Positions 2,171-20,959 of a stretch of 64,000 nt of DNA are shown here, piece after piece (within the stretch, counting starts at the first letter, position 1; each line of letters begins with the position of its first letter). The position numbers and the translations under genes were made by a program. The notes under the pieces were generated by a model, which saw only the letters and a list, made by a program, of their open reading frames with translations, had not been told where the DNA came from and made no database searches. Source of the DNA: Akkermansiaceae bacterium (lineage in GTDB: Bacteria; Verrucomicrobiota; Verrucomicrobiia; Verrucomicrobiales; Akkermansiaceae); NCBI GenBank assembly GCA_017798145.1, contig CP059069.1:2341226-2405225 (forward strand), in the 5' to 3' direction.

Positions 2171-2309
2171 GAGAGCAATCCATGCATGGTTTTCCAAAAA
2201 TAACGCCCCTTGCGCCGAAAGGCATTTCAGACTACAAGACATCGATCGCCGAAGCGGAGTGCCCCACCGAGGGAGCCCGCCCGGCACATCCCAGCAACCC
2301 ACTCACATC

Positions 2310-3431: not shown

Positions 3432-3452
3432 TCTCGCCGAAACATTTTCCGG

Positions 3453-3481
3453 AAAGGGAGGCAGGAATGCCTCCCTTTTTT
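3453..3481 (+). terminator. Rho-independent terminator after the desaturase gene
   Basis: An 11-bp perfect stem (3453-3463 with 3468-3478) closes a GGAA loop and runs into a T-tract. It separates the desaturase gene from the peptidase gene that starts 20 bases later. Confidence 0.92.
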
Positions 3482-3501
3482 CGTATCACCCCAACGCATA
3501 C

Positions 3502-5550: not shown

Positions 5551-5749
5551 GCAACCCTTTCATCAGTGCGGTCAGACGGAGCCGCTTCGCGCTCACCGGC
5601 CGTGCCTCCGCGAATTCACAGGCGGAAAAGTTGCTCGGGCAAGACCCACTCTCGCCCATAGCCAGGGATCCCTTCGGTTGCGGATGCCTATCCGCTCCCT
5701 CATCGCGCCTTGGGCTCGGCCTTTTCGGCAATTGCTTTTGGCAAAAGGT

Positions 5750-6214: not shown

Positions 6215-6215
6215 C

Positions 6216-7496
6216 TCAGCCGTTGAGGTTCGAGATCGTCTGGAAAATCGCGGTGATCATCAGGTAGGCGAAGGAGCCGATGAGCAGCGCCATCAGGATC
6301 AGCACGGTGGGCATGATGAGCGCCATTACCTTCTTCAGGTCGTTGTCGAGCTCCTTGTCGTAGCGCTCCGCCGCGCGGCGCAGCGATTGGTCGATCTTCC
6401 CCGTCTGCTCTCCCACCGCGATCATGTCGATGAGCAGGGGCGGGAAACTTTCCGAGCGTATCATCGCCTTGGAAAAGGCGCGCCCGTCGCCCACCTGGTC
6501 GATGACGCCGTTGAGCCGGTTCCGCAGGGAAATGTTCTGTGTGGCATCGCGGGAAAGCTCCAGGGCGCGGAGCAGGGGCAGGCCGTTGCCTACGAGGTTC
6601 GCCATGGTTTCAAGGAACTGGACGTAGAACCGCGAGGAGATCACCGCACCGGCCAGCGGCATGTTGAGTTTCATCTCGTCCCACTTCGGCTTGTTCGCAT
6701 CGTTGTCCTTCCAAGCCTTGAAAAACAGGCCGCCGCCGACAAACACGAGCAGGATCACGATCCACCAGCTTTTGATGAAATCGGCGAAGCCCATCATCAT
6801 GCCGATCGCGAACGGGATCTTCCCTCCGGGTGTGCTCTTGATGAGCTCCGTGAGCTGGGGGATCAGGGTGGTGACGAAAACCACGCCCACGCCCAGCCCG
6901 ACGAGGATCAGGAAGGCCGGGTAGATCATCGCGATGATGAGGCGGCTCTGCAGCTCGGCGAGCGTCTTGAGATAATGCGCCTGCCGTTTCAGGATCGTAT
7001 CGAGAGCACCGGAGGCCTCGCCCGCCGCCGCCAGCGAGCAATACAGCGGCCCGAAGCTGGGGCTGACCTTTTTCAGGGCGACGGAGAAATTCACACCGTC
7101 GCGCACGATGGTGCGGATGCGCTGGGAAACCGCCTTGAGGCTGCCGAGTTCCTGCCGGTTCTCCATGGAGCGCAAAGCCGGCTCAAGCTGCAGGCCGGCA
7201 CCGAGCATGTCTGACAGCTCCTCGGTGAAAAGGATCACCTCCGCCCGCTTGAGCTTCAGCGGCCCGTCGGATATCTCTTCTTCCTTGCCGGTGGATTTCT
7301 CCTTCCTGCGCGGAACCGTCGTCTCCTTCTTGTTGGCCGACTTCACCGGCGCCGCCTTCGACGACTCCTTCAGGTTCACAGGCTGCAACCCGCGCTTGTC
7401 CAGAACACGGAGAGCCTCGGGACGATCCGATGCCTCGATCTCGCCGGTTGCGACTGTGCCGTTGGTTGAAAGGGCTTTGTAGGAGAAGAGGGGCAT
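6216..7496 (-). CDS. pilC: type IV pilus / type II secretion inner-membrane platform protein
   Basis: 426 residues, the normal size for PilC/GspF. The N-terminus MPLFSYKALSTNGTVATGEIEA is the usual opening. A Lys-rich, low-complexity insert follows at about 45-80, then two copies of the T2SSF helical domain with membrane spans (for example LIIAMIYPAFLILVGLGVGVV and the C-terminal VMALIMPTVLILMALLIGSFAYLMI). It anchors the assembly ATPase and the growing pilus or pseudopilus at the inner membrane. The ATPase gene lies upstream on the same strand, but hicBA and an orphan gene intervene. GspF and PilC cannot be separated by sequence alone; the symbol follows the PilB-like partner. Confidence 0.88.
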   Translation of the reverse strand: MPLFSYKALSTNGTVATGEIEASDRPEALRVLDKRGLQPVNLKESSKAAPVKSANKKETTVPRRKEKSTGKEEEISDGPLKLKRAEVILFTEELSDMLGAGLQLEPALRSMENRQELGSLKAVSQRIRTIVRDGVNFSVALKKVSPSFGPLYCSLAAAGEASGALDTILKRQAHYLKTLAELQSRLIIAMIYPAFLILVGLGVGVVFVTTLIPQLTELIKSTPGGKIPFAIGMMMGFADFIKSWWIVILLVFVGGGLFFKAWKDNDANKPKWDEMKLNMPLAGAVISSRFYVQFLETMANLVGNGLPLLRALELSRDATQNISLRNRLNGVIDQVGDGRAFSKAMIRSESFPPLLIDMIAVGEQTGKIDQSLRRAAERYDKELDNDLKKVMALIMPTVLILMALLIGSFAYLMITAIFQTISNLNG

Positions 7497-7517
7497 GAGA
7501 CGTTCAGGTGAAAGAGA

Positions 7518-8207
7518 CTAGGTGCATCCGACGAAAATGTAAGCCTGGGTTTTCGCGGAGTCGGTGATGAGGTACATGAACCAGTGGGATTGGCCGTCCA
7601 TCCATCTGTACTGCTTCGCGCCTTCCCAATCGTTGAAATCCGGCCAGTCCGCAGGGGGCTTGACAGGGGTGGATGACATCCCTTCCTTGCCGAAGAATTC
7701 GTCCTCCTCCATCCCCTTTTCGCGGATGATGCGGCCGATCTCGTCGGAGGTTGTTCTGAAATAATAGGTGTCCCCGTAGTCGGCGAATCCGCCGCCGGTG
7801 AATTCGGTGCTCAGCCCTTCGGCTTCGCTTGGGAAACCAACCTTCGCCAGCCGTTCGAACCGCTTCTTTGGTGTCGGGTAATCGAAGGCCAGGCCGCCAA
7901 GAAAAATGATGAACACAATCCATGCCGGAGCCAACATCCACCGGGTGCGCCGGCTTTTGTCCTGCCTCTTGCGGAAGCCTAAGAAGACGGCGGTGCCCCA
8001 TGGGATGAAAAGCATGGCCCAGCCGAACACGAAAAACAGCGAGTGGATCAAGCCGTTGGCAAAACCGGCGAGGTGATTGGACCAACTCAACGCCTGGGAA
8101 ATGACGAACCCGGCATTGAAGATGACAAAGGAAAGCATCAGCGCCGCGGCGAAGTGCATCGGTTTTGCGGGATCCACTTCCTCCAAGGCGTCGGTCTCCG
8201 GATTCAT
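7518..8207 (-). CDS. unknown membrane protein
   Basis: 229 residues with no family I recognise. The N-terminal half holds three likely membrane spans (about 19-41, 49-75 and 90-108). A soluble, acidic C-terminal half rich in aromatic residues follows, with segments EFTGGGFADYGDTYYFRTTS and WMDGQSHWFMYLI. It lies between the broken hicA gene and pilC on the same strand, 21 bases before pilC, so it may be cotranscribed with the pilus genes. Whether it belongs to that machine or arrived with the toxin-antitoxin pair cannot be told. Confidence 0.6.
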   Translation of the reverse strand: MNPETDALEEVDPAKPMHFAAALMLSFVIFNAGFVISQALSWSNHLAGFANGLIHSLFFVFGWAMLFIPWGTAVFLGFRKRQDKSRRTRWMLAPAWIVFIIFLGGLAFDYPTPKKRFERLAKVGFPSEAEGLSTEFTGGGFADYGDTYYFRTTSDEIGRIIREKGMEEDEFFGKEGMSSTPVKPPADWPDFNDWEGAKQYRWMDGQSHWFMYLITDSAKTQAYIFVGCT

Positions 8208-8240
8208 CGTTTTACTTGATTTCTAGTCCGCCCCAAGGCC

Positions 8241-8400
8241 CTACAGGATCTTCTTCGCCAGATTCTCCTTCACTTCCGTGTGCCTGGGCACGGTTTCCGT
8301 GATGCCAGTCCCCGGGTTGATCCAAATCGAACGGGAACCTGCTTCGCGCTTCAGGTGACAGCCGGCCACACATCTTCTTTTCCAAATCCCGCCGTTTCAT
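8241..8400 (-). pseudogene. hicA: frameshifted HicA toxin gene
   Basis: The start overlaps the hicB stop as ATGA. The first ten codons read MKRRDLEKKM, the normal HicA opening. After that the family-like sequence continues only in the +1 frame from about 8369: AGCHLKREAGSRSIWINP, then GITETVPRHTEVKENLAKKIL and a stop at 8241. One extra base near 8365-8371 therefore splits the gene; without correction the frame yields a non-HicA 62-residue product. The conserved histidine of the dsRBD-like RNase site (usually GSH or GNH) also reads GSR here. The toxin is probably dead on two counts. A sequencing error could explain the frameshift but not the histidine change. Confidence 0.8.
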
Positions 8401-8615
8401 CCGATCATCACTTTCTCGCGGATCGCGTCCTTGGGAAGCCCTCTCAGGATATCCCCCATCCTGTCCTCAAGGAGCAGCTCGATGGCCTCCTTCAGGCTGG
8501 ACTTCGCTTCCTCAACCGCTTCCCCCTGTCCGTTCGCACCCGGAATTGCCGGGCAGATCGCCCAGCAACCCCCTTCTTCGGCGGACTCGATGATGGCTGT
8601 CAATTCGGCTTTCAT
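8397..8615 (-). CDS. hicB: HicB-family antitoxin
   Basis: 72 residues matching the short HicB antitoxins: YxAIIE-like start (LTAIIESAEEGGCWAICP), then AIPGANGQGEAVEEAKSSLKEAIELLL and a LRGLPKDAIREKVMIG tail. HicB proteins of this type carry a degraded RNase-H fold that caps HicA, and some add a DNA-binding tail; none is seen here. The order hicB-hicA with a 4-base ATGA overlap is one of the normal arrangements. Because the partner toxin looks inactivated, this may be an orphan antitoxin kept by chance or still able to neutralise a related HicA elsewhere. Confidence 0.85.
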   Translation of the reverse strand: MKAELTAIIESAEEGGCWAICPAIPGANGQGEAVEEAKSSLKEAIELLLEDRMGDILRGLPKDAIREKVMIG

Positions 8616-8654
8616 GAATGGTAAATTAGTCGGGGAGAAACATCAGAACAACGG

Positions 8655-10370
8655 CTAATCCGCACCACCGATATCGGATGACGTGACCGAGATGACTTCC
8701 TCGATGGTGGTTTCCCCCTGCATGACCTTGTGCCAGCCGTAGGTGCGCATGGGGATGTAGCCGTCGCGGTGCGCCTGGGCTTTCATCTCCGCAATCGGGC
8801 GGGAGTGGGCGACGAGCTCCTGCATTTTCTGGCCGAGTATGACCACTTCGTAGATCGCGAGACGGCCGGAGAAACCGGTCATGCGGCACTTGTCGCAGCC
8901 TTTCGGTTGGAAAATCCGGCCTTCGATGTCGCGGGGGATTTCCAGGTCGATGATGTCCTGGGTCGAGATCTCGCGCGGCACCTTGCAGTGCGGGCAGAGG
9001 CGGCGGACGAGGCGCTGGGCCAGGAAGGCGCGGACGGCTGCGGAAACGAGGAAGGGCTCCACGCCCATATCGACGAGGCGGGATATGCCGCCCATCGCGT
9101 CGTTGGTGTGGAGGGTTGAGAATACCAGGTGCCCGGTAAGTGAGGCGCGGATCGCGATCTCGGCTGTCTCGAGATCCCGGATCTCCCCGATCATCACGAT
9201 GTTCGGGTCGGCGCGGAGAATGGAGCGAAGGGCGGTGGCGAAGGTCAGGCCGATCTCTGATTTCACGGCGATCTGCATCACGCCGGTGAGCTTGTTCTCC
9301 ACCGGATCTTCCACGGTTACGATGCGCTTGTCCGGGCTGTTCACCTCGCTCAGGAAGGAATACAGGCTCGTCGATTTCCCCGAGCCGGTGGGGCCGGTGA
9401 TCAGGATGATGCCGTTGGGGAGGTGGAGCAGGCTCTCGATTTTTTTCTGCACGAAAGGCTCCATCTGGAGCTTGGCGAGGTTGAACTTTTCCTGGTTGAG
9501 GAGGCGCAGGGAAACGCTCTCGCCCTCCACGGTGGGCACGGTCGCGACGCGGACGTCGATGGTCTGGCCCTCGAACTGGAGGTTGATGCGGCCGTCCTGC
9601 GGCACGCGGCGCTCCGCGATGTCCAGGCGGGACATGATTTTCAAACGGGCGATGACCGAGCTTTGCAGCGCCTTGATGTTTTCCGGCACGGCGATCTCCA
9701 GCAAGCGACCGTCGATGCGGTAGCGGATGCGGAGGTTGTTCGCCAGCGGCTCGACATGGATGTCGGTCGCGCGCTGGTCGAGCGCCTCGCGGATGATCTG
9801 GTTGACGAACTTCACCACGCTGGCCTCCTCGTCCTCGTCGGCGTCGATGACGTTCGCCTCGTCCTCGGAATCGGAGAGCTGGTCGTAATCGAGATCCCGG
9901 CCTTCGAGAATCTGCTCAAAGGTGTCGGCACCGACCCCGTAGAGCCTGCGAAGCGCCTCGTGGATGCGTTTCCGCGAGGCCATGCACCACTCGAAGGGCA
10001 TGTCCAGCTCCTGCGCTGCCGCCTGGTGGGCGATGAGGTTGAAAGGGTCAAAGGTGGCGAGCAGGAGCTTCGGGCCATCGCCATCATCCTCGATGGCGAC
10101 AGGCAGGAGCCGATGGCGCAGTGCGATGCGCGGGCCGCAGGCCTCGCGGAGGGGTGTGGTGTTTTCCTCCGTCGGGATCTGCGCCAACCATGGCAGGTCC
10201 AGGTCGCGGGCGAGTTCCCGGAGGTAATTTTCCTCATCCACCACATTGGCATCCAGCAGGTCGTCGATGGGCGAGCGCTGGCGCTGGGCGGCTTCCTTGA
10301 TCAGCTCGCCGACGGCAGGCAAGTCATCGCATCCGGCGCGCCGGGCGGGTTCGAGTAAGAGTTGGGTCAT
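8655..10370 (-). CDS. pilB: type IV pilus assembly / type II secretion ATPase
   Basis: 571 residues, standard for PilB/GspE. The N-terminal third is the MshEN/GspE-N region (LDLPWLAQIPTEEN and following). The ATPase core shows Walker A GPTGSGKS at about 326-333, the Asp box EDPVENKL, Walker B with IVMIGEIRDLETAEIA and the His box LVFSTLHTNDA. A four-cysteine zinc site follows (CPHCKVP ... CDKCRMTG). It is the cytosolic motor that powers pilin or pseudopilin assembly, working with the PilC-type protein encoded downstream. It is the first gene of the minus-strand block; its start lies about 160 bases from tRNA-Ser on the other strand. Confidence 0.92.
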   Translation of the reverse strand: MTQLLLEPARRAGCDDLPAVGELIKEAAQRQRSPIDDLLDANVVDEENYLRELARDLDLPWLAQIPTEENTTPLREACGPRIALRHRLLPVAIEDDGDGPKLLLATFDPFNLIAHQAAAQELDMPFEWCMASRKRIHEALRRLYGVGADTFEQILEGRDLDYDQLSDSEDEANVIDADEDEEASVVKFVNQIIREALDQRATDIHVEPLANNLRIRYRIDGRLLEIAVPENIKALQSSVIARLKIMSRLDIAERRVPQDGRINLQFEGQTIDVRVATVPTVEGESVSLRLLNQEKFNLAKLQMEPFVQKKIESLLHLPNGIILITGPTGSGKSTSLYSFLSEVNSPDKRIVTVEDPVENKLTGVMQIAVKSEIGLTFATALRSILRADPNIVMIGEIRDLETAEIAIRASLTGHLVFSTLHTNDAMGGISRLVDMGVEPFLVSAAVRAFLAQRLVRRLCPHCKVPREISTQDIIDLEIPRDIEGRIFQPKGCDKCRMTGFSGRLAIYEVVILGQKMQELVAHSRPIAEMKAQAHRDGYIPMRTYGWHKVMQGETTIEEVISVTSSDIGGAD

Positions 10371-10531
10371 GCTTTCGCGGGCAGTCTCACCTCAAATGCC
10401 CGCCGCGTGCAACCTTGTCGGTGAAAACAAGCGCCGGCCGAATCGCGCGAAGATTTCCGGGATCTTTCAAACCCCATACTTGACGGAAGCCGCTTCCCAT
10501 GGTCAAAACACCTCGACCCGCTTGTTTTCAC

Positions 10532-10621
10532 GGAACGGTGGCTGAGTGGTCTAAAGTACTCCCTTGCTAAGGGAGCGTAGGGGTGACTCTACCGAGGGTT
10601 CGAATCCCTCCCGTTCCGCCA
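10532..10621 (+). tRNA. tRNA-Ser (anticodon GCU)
   Basis: A complete class II tRNA with CCA encoded. The acceptor GGAACGG (10532-10538) pairs with CCGTTCC (10611-10617). The anticodon stem CTCCC/GGGAG (10559-10563 with 10571-10575) closes loop TTGCTAA with anticodon GCT at 10566-10568. A variable arm (about GTAG/CTAC) and a T arm GAGGG-TTCGAAT-CCCTC follow. Its 3' end is the integration target implied by the repeated copies listed below. Confidence 0.96.
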
Positions 10622-10622
10622 T
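10603..10622 (+). repeat. tRNA-Ser 3'-end repeat, copy 1 (left attachment core, inside the tRNA)
   Basis: The 20-mer AATCCCTCCCGTTCCGCCAT is the 3' end of tRNA-Ser plus one base. Its last 17 bases recur exactly at 19584-19600, and diverged copies occur at 10791-10810 and 14629-14648. This is the pattern left by an integrative element that uses a tRNA 3' end as its attachment site. Confidence 0.75.
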
Positions 10623-10654
10623 CACCCGACCCCAGTCTGCTGGGGTCGGGTGAT
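10621..10654 (+). terminator. perfect 14-bp inverted repeat after tRNA-Ser
   Basis: The arms 10621-10634 and 10641-10654 are perfectly complementary with a 6-base loop. The left arm begins with the A of the tRNA CCA. There is no T-tract, so it could be a tRNA processing or termination hairpin, or part of the island end. It is strong and GC-rich. Confidence 0.6.
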
Positions 10655-11022
10655 GGCGTTTCAGGGGAAGGTAGTCCCGTTCCGAAGCGAAGCGCAGGAG
10701 GGTTTGAATTCGGGAAGTCGTCCTCGACGACGGCGTCCTTCTGGTGCGCGGCGCGCACCGAAACTGGAATGGCCGGAGTGGAACGAAGGCAATCCCTGCC
10801 GGTCCGCCATTTCTCAACACTTCCCAAGACTTCTCGCCGCTTCTCACAGCTCAGCGTTGATGCAAGGGTAATTGGAATTACAAGAGCACCGCGATTGATC
10901 AGGGCTCTGGGAAGGAGCCGCACGCTGATCTGCAGTAAGAGGATCGGGACGACTTCAATTGTCGACAATTATGACAGCGCCATGACAATCGACACCGGCG
11001 AATCTGCTGCCATAGCTGCGTT
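10655..11022. other. non-coding left end of the island
   Basis: About 370 bases between the tRNA hairpin and the first island gene. Apart from the attachment-like copy at 10791-10810, no convincing gene is visible; the overlapping frames have no family character. An AT-richer stretch near 10955-11010, just before the ATG at 11023, may hold the promoter of the kinase operon, but no clear -35/-10 pair stands out. No integrase remnant is recognisable. Confidence 0.4.
10791..10810 (+). repeat. tRNA-Ser 3'-end-like repeat, copy 2
   Basis: AATCCCTGCCGGTCCGCCAT matches the tRNA-Ser 3' end at 18 of 20 positions. It precedes the exported-protein/kinase/regulator module. Confidence 0.6.
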
Positions 11023-12057
11023 ATGAAAACACTGACCTACCTATTCAGCCTCACCCTCGCTTCCGTTTCCGCAGTCTCGGCCGACGAACTGTCGTTCAAG
11101 GACTCGCTTAACGAGGCTCTCTACGCCGAGAATGTCGCTCGCGACCTCGATGCCGCAGGCGAGGGCTACGGCCGGATCGTCGACTCCATCCGGAAAAACG
11201 GTTTCCCGGCCGAGGACCGGGCCCACGCCGCCACCGCCCTCTTCCGCCTCGCCGAGGTCCACGATCGCCAGGGTCGCGACGAGGAGGCGGAGAAACTCTA
11301 CCGGGAGTTCATCGAGCGCTTTCCCGATCAGAACGACCAACGCGCGCTGGCCATCGCAAAACTCGGTATCAGCGGCCCCCTGCCCCGACAGAGGCTCACG
11401 AAGGTGACCGGCACCGAAGAGGGTGCCGAAGATGCCCAGGTATCGGAAAACGTCTTCCGCGACCGCTGGCATTTCACCCGCGCCATGCAGCCGGATGAGT
11501 TGGTGCTGACGACCTTCCAGGTCAAGCATCAGGAAGGCCATGCCAACGAGGGGCTGCCGCCGGAGTTCGAAATCAAGACCCTGCACTACGCTCCCTCCGG
11601 AAAGTTCACGAAATGGTTCTCCCACACGCAGGTCTTCTGGACGAAAGAGGAACTGAAAAAGAGGTTTGAGGAGAACAAGAACAAGGGCCGGGCCGAGTGG
11701 CATGGAAACGACCGCCGGAACAGCGTCTCCGGATTCGGCCAGACCTACGTCGTGCCGGACGACCTGCACCACAGCGGTGGAGGTTGGGGTGATGCTTCGA
11801 TGGCGTTCTTCTTCACGGACGAGCACTCGGTGAGGGAAGACGGAGCTGAAGACTACGTGAAAGTCGAGGCCACCAAGTGCCTCACGGTCCGGCTGGCCTT
11901 CCAAGCGATGTCGCGGGACCGTGCCCAGAGGCTGTTGGCCGCGCCGCTCAAGCTGGAACTCCCCGAAATGGGTGACGAAGCCTGGTCTTACACCCTTCCG
12001 GTTTCACCCACCGAGTTTGAGGGAGTCAACCAGCCGAATGAGGACCCGAGCCGCTAA
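11023..12057 (+). CDS. exported protein with TPR-like N-terminal half, kinase-operon partner
   Basis: 344 residues starting with a signal peptide (MKTLTYLFSLTLASVSAVSA|DE). Residues about 25-110 form paired helices of tetratricopeptide type, including DLDAAGEGYGRIVDSI and AATALFRLAEVHDRQGRDEEAEKLYREFIERFP. The rest is an unrecognised domain rich in Asp, Glu and aromatic residues. The sensor kinase gene starts 5 bases after its stop, so the three genes form an operon. A periplasmic protein in that position may feed a signal to the kinase, but no function is known to me. Confidence 0.7.
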   Translation: MKTLTYLFSLTLASVSAVSADELSFKDSLNEALYAENVARDLDAAGEGYGRIVDSIRKNGFPAEDRAHAATALFRLAEVHDRQGRDEEAEKLYREFIERFPDQNDQRALAIAKLGISGPLPRQRLTKVTGTEEGAEDAQVSENVFRDRWHFTRAMQPDELVLTTFQVKHQEGHANEGLPPEFEIKTLHYAPSGKFTKWFSHTQVFWTKEELKKRFEENKNKGRAEWHGNDRRNSVSGFGQTYVVPDDLHHSGGGWGDASMAFFFTDEHSVREDGAEDYVKVEATKCLTVRLAFQAMSRDRAQRLLAAPLKLELPEMGDEAWSYTLPVSPTEFEGVNQPNEDPSR

Positions 12058-12062
12058 ACGGA

Positions 12063-13646
12063 ATGTCGAAGTCCCGGAAAGCGCAATCATCTTTGGCCGG
12101 CTGGGCGGTGGCGGTCACCTTGCCGCTCGTCGTCCTTGCCGCGGTGGCGGCCCTTGGGATCCGCGCCCAGAAGCAAGCCGCCCGCACGAGGGCGATGGAC
12201 GAGGCCGCCGTGGTTTCCGCGTCACAGGCCGACCCGCTCTCCCGGCAGTTGCAGGCCGCCATCGAGGAGTTTCCGCGCTTTCCCGATCCGCCGGTGCCGG
12301 GCAGCGGTTCGTCCCTTGAGGAAGACCTCGATGGATCCGACCTCGGGAAATTGTCCCGGCTGCGCGACAATCCCGAAGCCGGGAAGTCTGCGACGGGACT
12401 ACCACTCCGCGCCTTGGCCGCCCTGCGGATCGAGGCTCTCGCACCGGGGGAGCAGGCGCCGGACGAGATCGCAAGACTCCTGACCGTCGAGGCACCCTCC
12501 GTCCTGACCCTTCCCGCGCTCAAGCGCTTGCAGGACCGGCACCCCGGCTTCGAAATCCCGGAGGTCTGGCGACTCGTTGACAAACTCGACGAGGTGAGGG
12601 CCGGTCACCCCGACGGCGGCTGGATTTCTTTCGAGCAACGGTATTGGTGGATCTCGCCCGACGCGCGGCGGTTCCTGAGGCCGTCCGCCATCGGCACCGC
12701 CAGCCTCGAATTGCCTGCCCATGCCACGGCCCGCCTTTCTTCAAACGGGAAGCCGCTGACCCCACCGGCCAGCGGCGAAGTCCTCGCGAGCACCCCGGTC
12801 GACTTTCCCAGCCCGCTTGCCCTGGGTGGGTCCCTGTCCTCTCCGGACGCCCTCGCCGCGAACACCCGGCAGCAAACGCGCTGGACTCTCGCAATCGTGG
12901 GAACCTCGCTGCTGGTCTCGGCAATCGGGCTCTTCGCCATCCTGCGGATGGTTCGCGAGGAACGACGCCTCAGCCACCTCAAGGGCCAGTTCGTGTCGAG
13001 CGTTTCCCACGAACTCCGGGCACCGCTCGGGTCGATCCGGCTCATGGCCGAAGCGCTGGAAGACGGCCGGGTCGACGAACCGGGGGAATTCCATCGCCTG
13101 ATCGGTCAGGAATCCCGGCGTCTCTCGCATCTCGTCGAGAACGTCCTCGATTTCGCCCGCATCGAGGAGGGTCGCCGCCGCTATGACTTTGTGGAAACCG
13201 ATCTCGCCGCCCTCGTCGGGGAAACCGCCGAATTGTTCGGCCCCCGTGCCGCCGAATCGGCACACACGCTCGATGTCTTCGTGGAACCGGGCACGGCTTC
13301 CGTTGATCGCCATGCCGTGCAGCAGGCCGTGGCCAACCTCCTCGACAACGCCCTCAAGTTCTCGCCCCCCTCCACCACCGTTTCCGTCGTCCTGAGGTGG
13401 AGCGAGTCCGCGTGGTCCATCTCGATCATCGACGAGGGACCCGGCATTCCCGAGTCCGAGCGCGAGCGGATCTTCGAGCGCTTCCACCGCCTTGGAGACG
13501 AACTCCGGCGCGAGACCAAGGGCACCGGCATCGGCCTGAGCCTGGTCCGGCACATCACCGAGGCCCACGGCGGAACGGCGAGCGTGACCAACGGCCCCAC
13601 CACGTTTACCCTGAGCACTCCCATCCATCCCCCGGTGTCCCCATGA
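12063..13646 (+). CDS. membrane sensor histidine kinase
   Basis: 527 residues. TM1 is at about 11-33 and TM2 at about 274-296, leaving a periplasmic sensor region of about 240 residues with no family I recognise. The cytoplasmic part has a HisKA domain with the phospho-acceptor His316 in SVSHELRAP, and an HATPase_c domain with the N box NLLDNALKF at about 425-433, the G1 box IDEGPGIP and the GTGIGLSLV box. No HAMP or PAS domain is obvious. The stop overlaps the start of the response regulator gene as ATGA, so they are translationally coupled and surely partners. Confidence 0.9.
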   Translation: MSKSRKAQSSLAGWAVAVTLPLVVLAAVAALGIRAQKQAARTRAMDEAAVVSASQADPLSRQLQAAIEEFPRFPDPPVPGSGSSLEEDLDGSDLGKLSRLRDNPEAGKSATGLPLRALAALRIEALAPGEQAPDEIARLLTVEAPSVLTLPALKRLQDRHPGFEIPEVWRLVDKLDEVRAGHPDGGWISFEQRYWWISPDARRFLRPSAIGTASLELPAHATARLSSNGKPLTPPASGEVLASTPVDFPSPLALGGSLSSPDALAANTRQQTRWTLAIVGTSLLVSAIGLFAILRMVREERRLSHLKGQFVSSVSHELRAPLGSIRLMAEALEDGRVDEPGEFHRLIGQESRRLSHLVENVLDFARIEEGRRRYDFVETDLAALVGETAELFGPRAAESAHTLDVFVEPGTASVDRHAVQQAVANLLDNALKFSPPSTTVSVVLRWSESAWSISIIDEGPGIPESERERIFERFHRLGDELRRETKGTGIGLSLVRHITEAHGGTASVTNGPTTFTLSTPIHPPVSP

Positions 13647-14320
13647 GAATCCTGATTGTCGATGACGAAGCCCCGATGAGGGTCGCCCTCGAGCAGACCC
13701 TCCGCAGCGAAGGCTTCAAGGTCGCGAGCGCGGCCGACGGCGAGGCGGGTCTGGAGATGGCCCTCGCGGAACCCTTCGACCTCATCCTGCTCGACGTGAT
13801 GATGCCGAAGCTCGATGGCTTCGCGGTCTGCCAGGGCCTTCGCCGGCACGGCAGCAAGGTGCCCATCCTGATGCTCACCGCCAGGGGACAGGTCGATGAC
13901 CGCGTCACGGGGCTCGACAGCGGGGCCGACGACTACCTCACAAAACCCTTCAGTCTCAGGGAACTGCTCGCCCGGGTACACGCCCTGCTCCGGCGCTTCG
14001 AGCGCTCCGAACCCATCACCGATCCGTATCCGCTCGGTGATGGACAAATCCAATTCTCCAAACGCCGGTTCCAGCGCGCGGGCGAAGAGCATGAACTCAC
14101 GGAGAAGGAGGTTGGGATGCTCAAGCTGCTGATCGAGTCGAAGGGCGAGCCGGTCAGCCGCGAGAAGTTCCTCGACCATGTCTGGGGCTATGAGTCCTAC
14201 CCGAGCACCCGCACCGTCGACAACTTCGTCCTCGCCCTTCGCAAAAAGATCGAGCCTGATCCTTCGACTCCCCGGCATTTGCTCACCGTCCGAGCTTATG
14301 GATACCGCCTCGCCCGATAG
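13643..14320 (+). CDS. OmpR/PhoB-family response regulator
   Basis: 225 residues. The receiver domain has the acidic pair DDE at 7-9, the phospho-acceptor Asp51 in LILLDVMMP, Thr79 in MLTAR and Lys101 in YLTKPF. The C-terminal winged helix shows LTEKEVGMLKLL, VSREKFLDHVW, STRTVDNFVLALRKKIE and a final HLLTVRAYGYRL, all typical of the Trans_reg_C family. It is phosphorylated by the kinase encoded immediately upstream and should act as a DNA-binding regulator. The start is fixed by the 4-base overlap with the kinase stop. Its targets are unknown. Confidence 0.93.
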   Translation: MRILIVDDEAPMRVALEQTLRSEGFKVASAADGEAGLEMALAEPFDLILLDVMMPKLDGFAVCQGLRRHGSKVPILMLTARGQVDDRVTGLDSGADDYLTKPFSLRELLARVHALLRRFERSEPITDPYPLGDGQIQFSKRRFQRAGEEHELTEKEVGMLKLLIESKGEPVSREKFLDHVWGYESYPSTRTVDNFVLALRKKIEPDPSTPRHLLTVRAYGYRLAR

Positions 14321-14723
14321 AATACGATGCTTCGCCGGCACCGCGGCCGCAGGAGGCTCCGCCATCCGGTCCCGAAAAGCCCAAAGCCATCGGCCCTTGA
14401 TCCTAGTCACCGAGCTGGCAGACCTGTGAAAGATGAAAGGATCCTGCCGGAGCCGCTGCCGCCCAGAGGGTCCGGGGTTCGTTTCTGCCACTATCTGGGA
14501 CAAATTCCCCGGATTCAATGAGGATTTCAGCACAATGGCCGTGTCGGCGTGCGTCACCGTGCGACACCGGCAAATCCCCGTGACGCACCAATGCCCATGA
14601 ATACGAAGAAAAGCGCACCATCAGACGGAGTCCCTACCGCTCCGCCATCGTCTTCCATCGCCGTCACTCAGCGCGCTAAATGACAAAAATCCGCAGGGAA
14701 ACGATAAATTTGGGGGCCGTTTG
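14321..14723. other. non-coding gap between the two island modules
   Basis: About 400 bases without a convincing gene. It contains the attachment-like copy at 14629-14648 and, at about 14543-14590, an imperfect dyad built around GTGCGTCAC/GTGACGCAC. The stretch 14675-14722 is AT-richer and may be promoter sequence for what follows. Confidence 0.4.
14629..14648 (+). repeat. tRNA-Ser 3'-end-like repeat, copy 3
   Basis: AGTCCCTACCGCTCCGCCAT matches the tRNA-Ser 3' end at 17 of 20 positions. It lies between the kinase module and the sigma-factor module. Confidence 0.5.
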
Positions 14724-14894
14724 ATGCGGGATTCGTATCGAAATTGGTCGGCGTGCAAGGGCTTTGCACAGGGCATGCAGGATGACTGCACGAGTGGCCG
14801 AAACCTGGAAAACCAGCAGCAAAAGCAGGAAGAAATGCAGGCCGAGGCCGAGCGGATCAACCGGTCGCCGGATTCTACCGATGATACGGAGTGA
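14724..14894 (+). CDS. possible small protein, unknown
   Basis: An ATG-initiated frame of 56 codons. Its composition looks protein-like rather than random: a Cys-containing N-terminal part (NWSACKGFAQGMQDDC) and a Gln/Glu-rich amphipathic helix (ENQQQKQEEMQAEAERI). There is no obvious ribosome binding site and no family match I recognise. It lies directly upstream of the sigma-factor fusion gene. It may be a real small protein or a gene fragment. Confidence 0.3.
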   Translation: MRDSYRNWSACKGFAQGMQDDCTSGRNLENQQQKQEEMQAEAERINRSPDSTDDTE

Positions 14895-14985
14895 CGAAGC
14901 AGTCGGTTGAGGAATGAACTCGGCCCGGGACATCCCGAAACTTTTTTGGGACATTTCAGGCAGCGGCTTCGTGGTATACTGTGAA

Positions 14986-17340
14986 ATGCCTGTTTCGGAT
15001 CACAAGACGGACGCCAATTTGCTGAAGGAATTTTCCGGCAGCGGGAGCCATGCCGCTTTCGCCAGCCTGGTGAAGCGCCACGGCCCGATGGTCCACGCGG
15101 TTTCGATGCGGGTGTTGTCCAACCATCACGACGCGCAGGACGTGACCCAGGCCGCGTTCCTCGCCCTCGCCCGCGAGGCTGCAAAGTTGAGTCGCCAGCC
15201 CTCGGTGGCCGGTTGGCTCCACACGGTGTCCCGGCGCTTGTCGCTGGATGTCCGGAGGTCGAGGGAAAGCCGTCAGCGCCGTGAGCAAGCCGCCATGAAT
15301 GAATCCTTGAACTCCACCCCGGACGCCGCCCTGAGCGCCGGATTCCGCCGCGAACTGGATGCCGCGCTCGAGCGCCTGCCGGATCGCTACCGTCAACCGT
15401 TGGTGCTCTTCCACCTCGAGGGCGCTCCGCTCGACGAGGTCGCCCGCCGTCTTGATCTCCAGCCCTCCACCCTGCGCACCCGGCTGTCCCGCGCCCGCGA
15501 CATGTTGCGGGAAATCCTCGGCCGCCGGGGTGTCGAGGTGGCGTCGGTCGGGATGCTCGGAGCGCTCTTCACGGCTGAGGCCAAAGCGGCGACGTTCACA
15601 CCCACCCTTCTATCCACGGTGCTCGATACCGCGAACGGCACCGGCATTTCGCCCCGCATCATTGAACTGGCCGGCAAAGCGGCCGGCGCCAATGGCATCA
15701 CATTTTCCTCAACCTTCACCACCTTTGCCATCCTGATGAAAAGCAAAGCCACCGTCGTCTCCGCCATTGTGATCGCCCTGTTGGCTGTCGGAACCACTGC
15801 CTACGTCGTCAACCAAAGTGATGGCGCGAAAAGCAGGGAATCCCGCGCCGCCGGGCGCGATCTCTCAACGGTCGGGCCGCGCCAAGACCGCTTCAAGGCT
15901 TCGGAACGAATGCCAGTGGCCGCCCTCTCCGGGATCTCGTCCGAGGACGAGTTTTGGGCGCTGATGGAATCCGTGCTCCTGATCGGCGACGATGCCAAAC
16001 GCCTGGCGGCGATCCGTGATCGCCTGGGCATGGACATCTCGGACGCAGCTTACCGCGAAGCGATCACCGCCCACGGCTATGCGGTCGAACCGGAGAATCT
16101 GCTGACGATGCTGGCCGAAGCGTGGATCGGTGAAGATCCGGTTGCCGCGATGAGCTGGGCGCGGAAACTCCCGGATAGATTCGGGGACTGGTTCACCCGA
16201 AAGATGGTGGCCTGCTGGTTGACGAAGGATGAGGCCTCGGCCCGGGCATGGGCGAAAGATCATCTCGGACCCGAGGACCAGGAGATCATAAAGCAAGGAC
16301 TGGAGAGCCTTCAATCGAGACCCTCCCCTGATTCGTCCGCCGAGACTGCCGCGGGGCTGCGCCGGATGCAGGAGCAGTTGCTCGCCATCTCCGGCAGCGA
16401 CTCACAGGCACAGAAGGAGAGGGACGACTTCGGTGTCGAGTTCAACCGCGCCTTCAGCAAGTGGGCGGGGCGGGATCCTCGTCAGGCCATCGAATTCTGG
16501 GCGTCCATGGACGAGGATACCAAGAAGCGCGTGCCCGACATTGGTCATGTGTTTAGGATCTGGGCCCGCGCCGATCCCGATGCCGCTCTGGAACGGGCCA
16601 AGGCCATGGCCAACGCGAGCGAACGCGCCAACGCCCTCGTGGGAGTGCTCCCCGCATGGCAGCTCAAGCACCCGGACAAGACCATCGCAGAGGCCGCCGA
16701 CCTGAGCGTGATCCCCGATGAACGCTACGAAGTTCTCGTCCACAGGATCGTGAGCGACTGGGCCACCGCCGATCCTTCCCGTGCCCTTGACTTCGCCATG
16801 GCCATCGAGGATCCCGGCCAGCAGAAGCGTGCGGTGGGTGTCGTCGTCAAGTCATGGGTCCGGAAAACGCCGGAGCAGGCCCGCGAATGGGTGACGGCCC
16901 AGCCCGCCGGAGACATTCGCGACGCCGGCTTGAGCGAGATCAGCGACCGCCTTGCCCATACCGACTTTGTCTCCGCCGATCGTCTAGTCCGGGAGATCAA
17001 GGATCCGGAAGTGAAGCGAAACACGATCGACAGCATCATGAGCACCAGCGACTCGCTCGCGAACCACTTGCCCGAGGCGCTTCGCCTGGCCCAAGAAGAA
17101 GTGCCCCGGATGGATTACATGACCCTGAACGTGTGGGCAAGCAAGGTGGCGCCCCAGGATGTCCCGCGGTTCCGTTCCTGGCTGGAGGAAGCCAACGCCG
17201 CGGGACGCATCCAGTTCAACACCTATTCCAACCCGGATGGTGTCGATCCCGAAACGGTGAAGCGATTCAACGAGCGGTCCGCCCAGCAAGGGTATCGCTT
17301 CATCCTTGAGGGCCTCAAGACCGCGGAAGAGAAAAAGTGA
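14986..17340 (+). CDS. ECF-type sigma factor fused to a transmembrane segment and large exported domain
   Basis: The start was placed at ATG 14986 (MPVSDHKTDANLL), giving 784 residues; an in-frame ATG at 14914 would add 24 unlikely residues. Residues about 10-95 are sigma region 2 (AFASLVKRHGPMVHAVSMRV, DAQDVTQAAFLALAR, GWLHTVSRRLSLDVRR). Residues 120-178 are sigma region 4 (LPDRYRQPLVLFHLEG, DEVARRLDLQPSTLRTRLSRAR). A single hydrophobic span at about 255-276 follows. About 500 residues then lie beyond the membrane, a helical solenoid-like region with recurring DPxxAxxWA-type segments. The layout implies a membrane-tethered sigma factor that needs proteolysis or a conformational signal to act. 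No separate anti-sigma gene is adjacent. Confidence 0.85.
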   Translation: MPVSDHKTDANLLKEFSGSGSHAAFASLVKRHGPMVHAVSMRVLSNHHDAQDVTQAAFLALAREAAKLSRQPSVAGWLHTVSRRLSLDVRRSRESRQRREQAAMNESLNSTPDAALSAGFRRELDAALERLPDRYRQPLVLFHLEGAPLDEVARRLDLQPSTLRTRLSRARDMLREILGRRGVEVASVGMLGALFTAEAKAATFTPTLLSTVLDTANGTGISPRIIELAGKAAGANGITFSSTFTTFAILMKSKATVVSAIVIALLAVGTTAYVVNQSDGAKSRESRAAGRDLSTVGPRQDRFKASERMPVAALSGISSEDEFWALMESVLLIGDDAKRLAAIRDRLGMDISDAAYREAITAHGYAVEPENLLTMLAEAWIGEDPVAAMSWARKLPDRFGDWFTRKMVACWLTKDEASARAWAKDHLGPEDQEIIKQGLESLQSRPSPDSSAETAAGLRRMQEQLLAISGSDSQAQKERDDFGVEFNRAFSKWAGRDPRQAIEFWASMDEDTKKRVPDIGHVFRIWARADPDAALERAKAMANASERANALVGVLPAWQLKHPDKTIAEAADLSVIPDERYEVLVHRIVSDWATADPSRALDFAMAIEDPGQQKRAVGVVVKSWVRKTPEQAREWVTAQPAGDIRDAGLSEISDRLAHTDFVSADRLVREIKDPEVKRNTIDSIMSTSDSLANHLPEALRLAQEEVPRMDYMTLNVWASKVAPQDVPRFRSWLEEANAAGRIQFNTYSNPDGVDPETVKRFNERSAQQGYRFILEGLKTAEEKK

Positions 17341-17378
17341 CATCTTCCCCCGCCTCGACGATCAATCAAACCGCCAAC

Positions 17379-18119
17379 ATGAAAACTGTTAAACCATCTT
17401 CTCCATTCCCGCTGCTCGGCATTGCAGTCTTCGGGCTTGTTGCGGTCACCAGCGCCGAACCAAACACGGGCGAATCATCAGGCAAACCTCCGGTCGATGG
17501 TGGCAGCGACAAGAGCGTCAGATACATTCCAGTTTGGAAGGACTGGCAGAGGGACATCGCCAGGTTCGATGCCATACTTCGGAAGCTCGTTGAGACGGCG
17601 GATATTCCGAAGGAAGAGGAATTCAAAAAGCGACTTGAAGGCGAATCGGGGTGGGTTGAAGTCATCACCGATGGCTACGGCGGCGTGGTGGATTTCAATG
17701 CCGCCAAAGGCACGATCCAATACGAAGCATCTGAGCTGATTGGCTCCGGGGGACCCTACATCGACTGGGAATTCGAGCTCGCAAGCGACGCCAAGGCCAG
17801 CTACGACAAGTCCATGGAGTTCATCCCCAAGTTCGCCACGGTTGCGAATGGCGGAGAGGAGAAGAGTGGGCGATTAGGATTTTCCATCACTATCGCTGAG
17901 ATTGATGATGTTGCCTTCAAGGCTGGCGAACGGATCAGGCTGCGTGCCGCGATTGACGATTTCTCGCGCTTCAAAAAGCGGTATTCGAAAGCCATGGGCC
18001 TCGTCGCGATCTATTACCTGGAAGAGTCCCCCAACCCTGTCTTCAACCTCAGGTTGGACAAGGCGGACGTCACCCGTCTGGAACCGAACAAAGGAGAACA
18101 AGGTGGCGCTGGAAAATGA
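17379..18119 (+). CDS. exported protein of unknown function
   Basis: The ATG at 17379 gives 246 residues with a signal peptide (VKPSSPFPLLGIAVFGLVAVTSA|EP). The mature part is mixed charge, without cysteines or recognisable motifs. It includes DWQRDIARFDAILRKLVETA and a later beta-rich half ending with EESPNPVFNLRLDKADVTRL. It starts 38 bases after the sigma-factor fusion stop and may be cotranscribed with it. Codon use is noticeably less GC-rich than in flanking core genes, consistent with acquired DNA. Confidence 0.6.
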   Translation: MKTVKPSSPFPLLGIAVFGLVAVTSAEPNTGESSGKPPVDGGSDKSVRYIPVWKDWQRDIARFDAILRKLVETADIPKEEEFKKRLEGESGWVEVITDGYGGVVDFNAAKGTIQYEASELIGSGGPYIDWEFELASDAKASYDKSMEFIPKFATVANGGEEKSGRLGFSITIAEIDDVAFKAGERIRLRAAIDDFSRFKKRYSKAMGLVAIYYLEESPNPVFNLRLDKADVTRLEPNKGEQGGAGK

Positions 18120-18164
18120 ACAGATCCTCTTGACTGAAAAACACAATAGCACCACAAAAAATAT

Positions 18165-18383
18165 ATGAAGAACAATCCACTTGCCTTACTCTGCATCTTC
18201 GCTTCGATCGGATCGATTTTGACAGGTCTTGCATTAATGATCACAGCATTAAGCCCGAAAGTGTCATCAAGTTGGGGAGAGGTCGCCGCAGGTTTTACTC
18301 CTCAGGCGATACTAATCGCAGGAGGTTTGCTTTCTCTGGCAGTTTGCAGTTCTAAAAGCAATAATAGCGGCGGAGGCGAATAA
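18165..18383 (+). CDS. small membrane protein, unknown
   Basis: 72 residues with two hydrophobic segments (about 7-28 and 47-60) and a short Ser/Asn/Gly tail. Base composition is AT-richer than the chromosome average. There is no recognised family. It sits 45 bases after the exported protein gene in the island. Confidence 0.5.
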   Translation: MKNNPLALLCIFASIGSILTGLALMITALSPKVSSSWGEVAAGFTPQAILIAGGLLSLAVCSSKSNNSGGGE

Positions 18384-18509
18384 TAGTCCGGCAAGACAAT
18401 TTCCCAGCACACCACATTGAGTGGAAACCAACGGTCAGGTAACGTCTCTCGTTCGCTGCGCCCTGCAAGTCCAACCTATCCTTTCCTCATTTTTGAAGTT
18501 CTCTACAAT

Positions 18510-19046
18510 ATGAAAATCACAATACCCATCATCGCCTCCATAGTCGTTGTTATCTCCCTTGTTGGCTGCAACAAAAGCAGCTCATCACTCGAAGTCGCAG
18601 CAATGACTGGAGATATTGACTCGGTGAAAGCACAAATTGACGCTGGGGCAGATGTCAATCTTCCCGCAGACAAACCTCCCCTCTATACTGCGACTGCGTT
18701 CGCTGGAGATCTTCTACGGGACCCCCGTCCGGATATGCAGGCCAGGGAGAAGAGTTACACCAAGATAGTGGAGTTGTTGGTCTCGGCAGGCGCCGACCTT
18801 GATGCACAGGATAGCGCAGGCGATGCGGCATTAGCCCGTGCGGCAAGAAGTGGTCACAAGGAAATTGTGCAGCTATTGATTTCAAAAGGTGCCGATGTGA
18901 ATCTTATGTTGTATTCGGGTCGGACACAAACTGCGCTGGATAGAGCAATGTCCGCAGGGGAACCAGAGACAGCAGCTCTTCTTCGCAAACATGGCGGCAA
19001 GACGAGGGCGGAATTGGAGGCTAGCGAATCGGGTCCCCGTGACTGA
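18510..19046 (+). CDS. ankyrin-repeat lipoprotein with altered C-terminus
   Basis: The ATG at 18510 gives 178 residues. The N-terminus is a lipoprotein signal peptide with lipobox LVGC (Cys19 or so), so the protein is anchored to a membrane. About three ankyrin-type repeats follow, seen as EVAAMTGDIDSVKAQIDAGADV, KIVELLVSAGADLDAQDSAGDAALARAARSG and KEIVQLLISKGADVN, then ALDRAMSAGEPETAALLRKHGG. The last few residues (GPRD) and the stop codon are encoded by the antisense of an intron-like element, so the original C-terminus may have been different. Confidence 0.75.
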   Translation: MKITIPIIASIVVVISLVGCNKSSSSLEVAAMTGDIDSVKAQIDAGADVNLPADKPPLYTATAFAGDLLRDPRPDMQAREKSYTKIVELLVSAGADLDAQDSAGDAALARAARSGHKEIVQLLISKGADVNLMLYSGRTQTALDRAMSAGEPETAALLRKHGGKTRAELEASESGPRD

Positions 19047-19104
19047 CTCCGAGAGCCAGCCACGGGTCCCATACCAGCGTGCGTACGGGTCCGTACACGG
19101 CGGT
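19027..19104 (-). mobile_element. group II intron domain V-VI remnant (antisense to the ankyrin gene end)
   Basis: Read on the minus strand, 19104-19073 (ACCGCC ... GCTGGT) folds like a group II intron domain V hairpin, resembling the CGC-triad class C version but with one C-C mismatch. It is followed at 19070-19031 by a long hairpin like domain VI: GGG/CCC at the base, an internal loop with an unpaired A at 19034, then a 14-bp stem with two G-U pairs. That A lies 8 bases from the proposed 3' end (GATT at 19030-19027), where a branch-point A is expected. No reverse transcriptase frame is visible, so this is a remnant or a short ORF-less intron. Confidence 0.5.
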
Positions 19105-19107
19105 TCC

Positions 19108-19583
19108 GTTCAGACGCGGGACGAGCCCGCGTGAGGAGCGGGCCGAAGCCCGTCCTGAGCATCCACATGCTTCCCATCGAACCAGCTATCGTCCATCCCT
19201 CGCCGTCTGGCGTTTTCGGCTGGGGCGTCTGGTTCGCGGTTAGGACACTCCCATTCGGTTCTGCCCTTCGCTGTGTTGTGCCAGCTCGTCGTGCCGTAGA
19301 GGCCCATTTCGGCAACCAGCCCTTGATCGAAGGCACCAATCTGGCAGACGTGCGACGGATGGACGAAAACCTGACCAGAAAAGCCAGCCACCGGATTTCC
19401 GGGAAGCCGGCTCCTGTCGGCCCGTGTTTCAAATTCATCCGCCCTTCCGGGACAGAATGGCGGTTTTTCTGACGGATTTCTGACAAAGTCATGTGTCGTC
19501 ACCTGTCATTCTGGGTAACCCGGAAAATCCAGTTGCCCAAAGAATCCTATGATATCCATAGATTCCCCACCCTGTAAGGGCTC
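19108..19583. other. non-coding right end of the island
   Basis: About 475 bases without a gene I can support. Long overlapping minus-strand frames exist here but show no family signature; they would correspond to the body of the intron-like element if it extends this far. A typical 5' intron end was not found. The right boundary is the tRNA-like repeat at 19584-19600. Confidence 0.4.
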
Positions 19584-19600
19584 CCCTCCCGTTCCGCCAT
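19584..19600 (+). repeat. tRNA-Ser 3'-end repeat, copy 4 (right attachment core)
   Basis: CCCTCCCGTTCCGCCAT is identical to 10606-10622 (17 of 17). Both copies are also followed closely by GACCCCAG (10628-10635 and 19601-19608). It marks the right end of the tRNA-Ser island; the folC gene begins 141 bases later. Confidence 0.7.
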
Positions 19601-19741
19601 GACCCCAGCCGGCATTGGGCAAAGTCTTGCGAGGTTTGCCGAATGTGGCTTGAGCGGGTCCCTTGCCCGGAAACCCGGCGTCCGATTGTTGAATTTTGGA
19701 TTTTGAATTCCGATTTTTTGGGGGAGCCTAGCGGCAGGCAC

Positions 19742-20959
19742 ATGGACTATGAGGAAGCGATAGATTGGCTGTTCGGGACGCAGACCTTCGGGATCAAGCT
19801 GGGGCTGGATGGGCCGAGGAACCTGCTGAAGGAATGCTTGGCCTTTCCGGCGCACGGGGTGCAGGTGGCACATGTTGCGGGGACGAACGGGAAGGGTAGC
19901 ACCTGTGCGATGATGGACAGCGTGGCGCGGGCTTGCGGGAGGCGCACGGGGCTTTTCACCTCCCCGCACCTGATCGACTACCGGGAGCGGATGCGGGTTT
20001 CCGGCCTGATGATTCCGAAGGAACGGTGTGCGGAGCTGCTGACGGAGGTTCGGGCCGTATGCGAGCGGCTGGAGGTGCACCCGACGTTTTTCGAGATCAG
20101 CCTGGCGGTGGCTATGCGCTGGTTCCGCGAAAGGGACTGCGAGCTCATCATCCTGGAGACCGGGATGGGCGGGCGGCTGGATGCGACCACGGCGGTGCCG
20201 GCGGATGTCTGCGTGATCTCGCCGATCGGGCTGGATCACATGCAGTGGCTGGGCGACACCTTGGGGAAAGTGGCGGCGGAGAAGGCGGGGATTTTCCTGG
20301 AGGGGGTGCCGGCCGTTTCGTCGCCGCAGGATACGGAGGCGAAGCTTGTGCTGGAGAAGGAGGCGAACGAGCGCAGGACGCCGCTGGATTTCATCGGGGC
20401 GCCGCTGGAGGGATATGGGATCGGCCTTGCTGGGGAGCACCAGAAATGGAACGCCGCGCTGGCGCTGGCCGCGCTGCACAAGCTGGGGATGAGGCTGGGA
20501 TATGAAAGCGTCGTGGAGGGGCTGGGCAAGGTTTCGTGGCCCGGGAGGTTCGAGAGGATCCTTTCGGAAGGCACGGAGGTGATCCTCGATGGCGCCCACA
20601 ATCCCCATGCGGCCAAGGTGCTGCGGCAGACGTGGCTGGCGGAAATCGGCGGGGGAAAAGGGACCTTGCTCTTCGGCGCGGTGGAATCGAAGGACGTTTC
20701 CGGGATACTGGCGGAGCTGGCCGGGCTGACGGCGCGGATGATTTTCTGCAAGGTCGGAACCATGCGGGGCTTGCCGGTGGAGGATTTGCTCCATGCATTG
20801 CCGGAGGGGGCGGAGGCGGATTGCCACGGGAATTTCCACGATGCGATGGAAGCGGCGCGGAAACACGGCGGCCCGGTGCTGGTGGCCGGATCGCTCTATT
20901 TGGTGGGTGAGGCGCGCGCGGAGTTGCTGGGCGGGGAGTTTTTGGCGAGCGCGCAGTAG
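19742..20959 (+). CDS. folC: bifunctional folylpolyglutamate / dihydrofolate synthase
   Basis: Start at ATG 19742 (MDYEEAIDWLFGTQTFGIKLGLD), which matches the usual FolC opening; 405 residues. The ATP-binding P-loop is HVAGTNGKGST, followed by GLFTSPHLIDYRERMRV, the ETGMGGRLDATTAV motif, ISPIGLDHMQWLGDT and, in the C-terminal domain, DGAHNPHA. It adds glutamate to folates in the cytosol, supporting the thyA-folA pair at 0.8-2.2 kb. It is the first core gene to the right of the island. Confidence 0.95.
   Translation: MDYEEAIDWLFGTQTFGIKLGLDGPRNLLKECLAFPAHGVQVAHVAGTNGKGSTCAMMDSVARACGRRTGLFTSPHLIDYRERMRVSGLMIPKERCAELLTEVRAVCERLEVHPTFFEISLAVAMRWFRERDCELIILETGMGGRLDATTAVPADVCVISPIGLDHMQWLGDTLGKVAAEKAGIFLEGVPAVSSPQDTEAKLVLEKEANERRTPLDFIGAPLEGYGIGLAGEHQKWNAALALAALHKLGMRLGYESVVEGLGKVSWPGRFERILSEGTEVILDGAHNPHAAKVLRQTWLAEIGGGKGTLLFGAVESKDVSGILAELAGLTARMIFCKVGTMRGLPVEDLLHALPEGAEADCHGNFHDAMEAARKHGGPVLVAGSLYLVGEARAELLGGEFLASAQ

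Follow-up and report, generated by a model that had tools for sequence, protein, structure and literature searches.

An RtT-like repeat with a spare tRNA end and two tandem elements without an integrase behind tRNA-Ser(GCU) in an Akkermansiaceae bacterium

In this study we analysed a stretch of 64,000 nucleotides from the genome of an Akkermansiaceae bacterium (assembly GCA_017798145.1, contig CP059069.1, positions 2,341,226 to 2,405,225), which as a whole is called the window below. In it the gene for tRNA-Ser(GCU) (10532-10621, + strand, CCA encoded; found by ARAGORN and by the Rfam tRNA model) is followed by a repeat that resembles RtT RNA (RF00391) and then by two elements in tandem, element I and element II. 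The repeat ends on a spare copy of the tRNA 3' end, the right ends of the two elements are homologous, the left end of element I is common to a sister element of the same genome, and no integrase was found inside. We favour, with a probability of roughly two in three, the reading that the RtT-like repeat with its spare tRNA end stands behind tRNA-Ser(GCU), that the two integrase-less elements follow it in tandem and that element I landed at the spare copy. In this view element I would have been inserted at the RtT copy, instead of the tRNA itself, by a tyrosine integrase that either worked in trans or has been lost since, and this insertion would have left tRNA-Ser(GCU) and its trailer intact; element II would then lie behind element I, at a further copy of the tRNA 3' end. 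The repeat family to which this repeat belongs is a wider finding than the two islands.

Copies of the tRNA 3' end and the RtT-like repeat

The 3' end of tRNA-Ser(GCU), AATCCCTCCCGTTCCGCCAT (10603-10622, + strand), was taken as a reference 20-mer. It occurs again at 10791 with two mismatches and at 14629 and 19581 with three mismatches each, always on the + strand. This confirms the original prediction, which had described the recurrences as 18/20, 17/20 and, for 19584-19600 within the last copy, 17 exact bases. No further match at up to five mismatches was found on either strand of the whole 64 kb, and 100 dinucleotide-shuffled windows gave none at up to three mismatches. In a genome-wide search for copies, as had been proposed with the prediction, the degenerate 17-mer TCCCTNCCGNTCCGCCA showed three exact matches in the 4.39-Mb genome, every one of them at the tRNA-Ser(GCU) locus. 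At up to two mismatches the 17-mer has 50 matches and its reversed control has 50 as well, so that these looser matches are, as a class, at chance level. A chance motif was ruled out by the 20-mer scan of the window, the genome-wide 17-mer scan and the shuffles.

Two kinds of copy can be told apart: the one at 10791-10810 (+ strand) is the right end of an RtT-like repeat, and those at 14629 and 19581 are the right ends of elements. The tRNA is followed by a hairpin with a perfect inverted repeat of 19+19 nt (10617-10658, + strand), likely a terminator. This trailer is native; in our comparison set of 59 genomes, consisting of the host (G000) and relatives labelled G001 onward, positions 10468-10661 of the window, tRNA included, are 87% identical to G007. 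The repeat behind it (10655-10810, + strand) has a decayed left arm. It was recognised with a model, R1, that was built from 17 RtT-like repeats with the window repeat left out. This model gives a match at 10655-10809 (22.4 bits, E 3.9e-4) that is the sole match in the window at E<=10 with default filters and a weak one at genome scale. The right end repeats the 3' end of the adjacent tRNA at 18 of 20 positions, and the left arm of this repeat does not pair with the right-end copy. A tRNA remnant at 10655-10810 was considered as well and ruled out, as this sequence is matched by the RtT-like model and contains no second tRNA according to Rfam.

Similar repeats are found in relatives. A copy of the tRNA 3' end stands at +147 to +170 downstream in 6 of 32 tRNA-Ser(GCU) loci, the window's included; it is exact in G007 and G032, has one to four mismatches in the remaining four loci and mirrors the tRNA variants seen in G032, G014 and G020. 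The stretch between tRNA-Ser(GCU) and this copy is alike in several of these loci and is multicopy, being found also behind the tRNAs Ser(GGA), Ser(CGA), Ser(UGA), Pro(GGG), Pro(CGG) and Lys(UUU). Model R1 has matches in 25/59 genomes at E<=0.001 and in 28/59 at E<=0.1, ten of the genomes with matches having supplied sequences for the model. Three tandem units in G032 match RF00391 across positions 1-130, the whole model, at 27.6-31.8 bits, the cut-off being 45. This gathering score of 45 bits is exceeded in 0/39 relatives, 11 of which have weaker matches below the cut-off (the highest in the order with 36.9 bits in G041); among 14 control genomes it is passed in E. coli only. In the host genome, the tRNAs Pro(GGG) and Ser(GGA) have RtT-like repeats downstream that are without an intact 3'-end copy. 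Behind the host tRNA-Pro(UGG) (L329, C1:1688000-1690000, minus strand) the own 3' end is found three times in tandem, at +168, +354 and +490; the copies are separated by RtT-like sequence, and one unit reaches model R1 (E 0.0035).

In the original prediction all copies were boundaries of one kind. Three insertions would then have taken place at the tRNA 3' end, with 10623-10790 as the smallest element, and both the three direct copies on a single strand and the integrase gene that stands behind this tRNA in three relatives (see below) agree with such a history. However, 10655-10809 matches the RtT-like model, the trailer is native and the conserved element right end is present at 14629 and 19581 only. 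A comparable arrangement of tRNA and copy is also found behind tRNA-Ser(GCU) in G007, G032, G014 and G020. In G007 the RtT-like repeat is followed by other genes, with flanks that are rearranged compared to the window, and on this contig of 15.5 kb neither an integrase nor element ends were found near the tRNA and its repeat. The copy at 10791 thus belongs to the repeat, which relatives also carry behind this tRNA, and boundaries of a single kind appear improbable.

Element ends and integrases

Element I spans 10811-14648 (3.8 kb) and element II spans 14649-19600 (5.0 kb). The left end of element I (10811-10848, + strand) is ACTTCCCAAGACTTCYCGCC. Its right end (14361-14648, + strand) was recognised by homology to 19280-19600 and to an end in G004 and closes with the tRNA 3'-end copy 14629-14648; the right end of element II (19280-19600, + strand), recognised by matches in relatives, closes with the copy 19581-19600. 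With the 20-nt copies left out, 14361-14609 aligns with 19280-19562 at a Smith-Waterman score of 41, compared to a mean of 14.1 and a maximum of 25 in 500 shuffles and a maximum of 23 for random pieces of the window. Positions of right ends in relatives were taken from BLAST. The end at 19280-19600 is matched at 84% over 280 nt in G036, five times in G022 and three times each in G001 and G012, and at 69% at a second place in the host genome. In G004 a right end of the element I type stands immediately before a new element with an integrase gene. The proposal of two elements in tandem at this tRNA site is supported by the homology that their right ends share with one another and with the dispersed ends in relatives. 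Direct repeats of the tRNA 3' end lie at the borders, and the ends are shared with other elements, apart from the left end of element II, which is taken up further below.

ACTTCCCAAGACTTCYCGCC has exactly two exact matches in the host genome, one in the window and one behind tRNA-Ser(CGA), each 9 nt after CCA. At one mismatch there are three matches in relatives (G017, G020, G004), and at two mismatches another three (G002, G003, G038). Both the window and G017 have an RtT copy in front of this left end. In front of it stands tRNA-Ser(CGA) at the other site of the host genome, tRNA-Ser(GGA) in G020 and the right end of another element in G004. Because the left end of element I directly follows the RtT copy and that of the sister element follows a tRNA, the spare copy probably served as the attachment site of element I.

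The sister element (L318:5174-8593) is a third element of the host without an integrase; it is 3.3 kb long, lies directly behind tRNA-Ser(CGA), has the left end of element I and a right end of the same type, and contains the gene of a DUF1961 protein. The dispersed element end of ~280 nt (L322 in G001 C66, L327 and L325) occurs three times on one contig, and at some tRNA-Ser genes it stands in opposite orientation right at the tRNA.

Searches of the six predicted island proteins against Pfam and NCBIfam gave no integrase, and with three integrases of the genus as queries tblastn had no match anywhere in the window at E 1e-3, in line with the earlier claim that none is present. Tyrosine integrases at this tRNA, for which a search had been suggested, do exist in relatives: in G016, G005 and G010 such a gene stands directly behind tRNA-Ser(GCU) and begins 117 nt after it. 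The protein has 440 aa and a Pfam Phage_integrase domain in G016, and the copy in G010 is cut by the contig end. The integrase beside the element end in G004 is 86% identical to that of G016. Since the host genome has no close homologue of the tRNA-Ser(GCU) integrase (best identity 29%), the suggestion that the elements were mobilised in trans or have decayed stands.

It is quite improbable that the copies are instead the remains of a tandem RtT array of three units into which genes were placed later by rearrangement, with no integrase element involved. The three tandem 3'-end copies behind the host tRNA-Pro(UGG) offer a parallel for such an array, and the sequence past 19600 resembles the tRNA trailer (19601-19622, + strand, partly by eye): 10606-10632 and 19584-19610, copy included, are 89% identical, the likeness past 19610 being judged by eye. 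However, the RtT model with filters off gives nothing convincing at 14629 (4.3 bits) or 19581 (6.6 bits), and the 260-320 nt upstream of these two copies match dispersed element ends. An RtT half before 14629, which was our first reading by eye, was ruled out on that same score and on the match of the sequence to the element right end in G004.

A repeat family behind bacterial tRNA genes

The RtT-like repeat of the window is a member of a widespread bacterial family, the right end of which usually copies the 3' end of the adjacent tRNA or tmRNA. Public genomes were surveyed with the pattern GGATGAGAACCN{5,24}GGTTCGA, which excludes the tRNA 3'-end copy itself, and at least 115 loci with at least 134 pattern matches were obtained; the numbers in this paragraph and the next refer to the matches listed. 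Behind a tRNA of the same strand and within 800 nt of it lie 100/134 matches, with a median gap of 52 nt in those tested. Four others lie behind tmRNA genes (L175, L222, L238, L247), and several of the other 30 resemble coding sequence by eye. At L222 the end of the repeat equals, by eye, the tmRNA 3' end. The last 16 nt of the adjacent tRNA were then compared with the repeat in the 79 first units with enough sequence. A copy of the own tRNA with at most two mismatches in 16 was present in 62/79 and an exact one in 55/79. The summed mismatch was 118, compared to a mean of 473 (minimum 417) for permuted pairs and of 290 (minimum 236) for pairs permuted within isotypes, with 5000 permutations in each case.

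Eleven isotypes are represented, each with at least one matching copy, and the matched repeats span at least six bacterial groups. For the first 80 loci listed, with group labels assigned by hand, matched copies were found in 22/29 cases in Proteobacteria, 4/5 in Bacteroidota, 4/4 in Verrucomicrobiota, 3/5 in Gastranaerophilales, 1/2 in the candidate phyla radiation, 1/1 in Omnitrophota and 5/5 without a group label; none of the matched copies in these 80 loci lies inside another tRNA gene. Hence the same architecture occurs in several bacterial groups, behind eleven tRNA isotypes and tmRNA. In every one of the 41 cases that were aligned, the part identical to the tRNA begins within the T loop or further 3', and its extension into the trailer varies in length. 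At one locus (L210:261-424) the RtT copy ends in ...CCCACCA and the genomic tRNA-Tyr in ...CCCAA, as if the copy had retained a CCA that is absent from the gene.

Across the family the right-end copy pairs with the left arm of the repeat in a terminal helix that covaries with the copy. This was seen in 21 hand-chosen repeats, the window's not among them, in which the left arm pairs with the right-end copy and 91.4% of the terminal-helix cells are paired. For the tested structure as a whole, the covariation score was 0.385, compared to 0.101 for shuffled (0/500) and 0.032-0.156 for slid alignments. Because the Rfam model reaches its cut-off in 9/18 proteobacterial loci and in 0/19 loci mostly of other groups, much of the RtT family may be unannotated.

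Two ideas can be tested. Recombination, or selection acting on the helix, might keep the repeat matched to its tRNA, and elements that attack tRNA 3' ends might find in the repeat an additional place to land. A tentative and rather unlikely generalisation would be that RtT is a bacteria-wide element whose ends are rewritten to match its own tRNA or tmRNA, and that one of its roles is that of a spare site which diverts integrases from the tRNA.

Several results weigh against these readings. In the window, the match of the repeat to model R1 (22.4 bits) has an E value of only 0.026 at genome scale, the left arm is lost, the terminal helix has a gap and three non-standard pairs, and RF00391 finds no match in the window up to E=5 and none in the whole host genome; because of this genome-scale E value and the decayed left arm we term the repeat an RtT-like remnant. 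As to the elements, no left end of element II is recognised after 14648, no tRNA was found near the RtT copy that precedes the left end in G017, and in both G017 and G020 the 9-nt spacer is absent from the junction with the left end. Some ends of this family are opposite in orientation beside tRNAs (G001, G012, G013, G015), which simple site-specific integration does not explain. A strict decoy role of the repeat is at odds with G020, where the element sits at the tRNA and an RtT-like repeat 9 kb away, and with G005, where it is the tRNA that has the integrase next to it and another contig carries an RtT with a tRNA 3' end. In the survey, 17/79 repeats are without a good copy, with Phe and Arg as the poorest isotypes (1/4 matched and 3/4 lacking in each), and 6/10 helix pairs are changed on both sides, a count that is not above shuffles (141/500).

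Related systems, flanks and cargo

RtT RNA (RF00391), known from the E. coli tyrT repeats, resembles the repeats described here in its place behind a tRNA, in the copy of the tRNA 3' end that forms its end, in its tandem units, in its GGAUGAGAACC...GGUUCGA core and in a left arm complementary to the copy. It differs in that the copies of the genus stand behind Ser, Pro and Lys tRNAs and stay below the Rfam cut-off in all 39 relatives, and in that the window copy lacks its left arm and has an inserted element behind it. E. coli tyrT carries a 19-nt repeat, and the function of the tyrT repeats has, to our knowledge, been open for decades. Behind a tRNA-Tyr of Mangrovibacter three RtT units (103-124 bits) with a spacing of 176 nt show the same pattern as tyrT. 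With islands of tyrosine integrases that target tRNAs, the elements of the window have in common the direct repeats of the tRNA 3' end, the shared ends, the lineage-specific cargo and the tandem stacking. They differ in their small size and in the integrase that was not found inside, and their attachment site would be the spare copy of the repeat and not the tRNA.

In Actinobacillus pleuropneumoniae small RNAs (sRNAs) of the RtT family have been detected by Northern blots and RNA-seq (PMC4986893). There, too, they are found close to genes of tRNAs other than Tyr (Asn, Lys), but upstream of the tRNA genes, and that paper treats them as sRNAs and not as integration sites; moreover, this species is a gammaproteobacterium and within the reach of Rfam. 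Other papers mention a tandem GA motif and covariation (PMC7657543, PMC8250186), rtT RNA as a change of repeat number (PMC2658671), attenuators resembling rtT (PMC2965389) and cold induction of an RtT sRNA (PMC8092127). In the excerpts of open-licence papers returned by a literature search, there was no description of RtT copies that match many different tRNAs or that serve elements as sites of integration.

The right flank of the island is folC (19742-20959, + strand; TIGR01499 above cut-off), which is present in 55/59 genomes. On the left, thyA-folA (821-2167 in the window) directly precedes tRNA-Ser(GCU) in G007, G004, G032, G014 and G016, whereas in the window a gspE/gspF block (2174-10430) parts them. 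An empty site joining the tRNA to the folC side, for which the original prediction had suggested to look, was not found. We also considered folC or gspE as neighbours of the tRNA in relatives, which was not so in the relatives read: both are on other contigs in close relatives, apart from G007, whose incomplete assembly yielded no folC. As the gspE block interrupts the order thyA-folA-tRNA and folC lies elsewhere in relatives, the window is a mosaic. This mosaic would suit a further possibility, namely that the homologous ends and the copies arose by recombination among tRNA-Ser loci, through gene conversion or rearrangement of blocks and without integration. However, the ends occur at several loci and in several genomes, the cargo differs among the three host elements, and in G004 an element end lies beside an integrase gene, so that we regard recombination of this kind as very improbable.

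All cargo genes lie on the + strand. Element I encodes a TPR protein of 344 aa with an export-like start, judged by eye (11023-12057; Pfam TPR_6), a sensor histidine kinase (12063-13646; HisKA and HATPase_c) and a response regulator (13643-14320; Response_reg and Trans_reg_C). Element II encodes a sigma factor of the extracytoplasmic function (ECF) type (14986-17340; Sigma70_r2/r4_2, TIGR02937 above cut-off) with a long fused C-terminal part that has no Pfam match, an orphan with a start resembling a signal peptide by eye (17379-18119; no Pfam or NCBIfam match) and an ankyrin-repeat protein with a lipoprotein-like start, again by eye (18510-19046; Ank_4, Ank_2). The enclosed genes had been described as partly AT-richer, which is right for 17-19 kb (57-50% GC) and not for the kinase module, which is GC-richer (66-67%). 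Close matches to the island genes were not found in the 31 tRNA-Ser(GCU) loci of relatives, many of which are on short contigs. The 344-aa protein has weak partial matches only, in 7/58 other genomes, and matches to the kinase and regulator with 30-39% identity are present among the 31 loci in G014 and G022.

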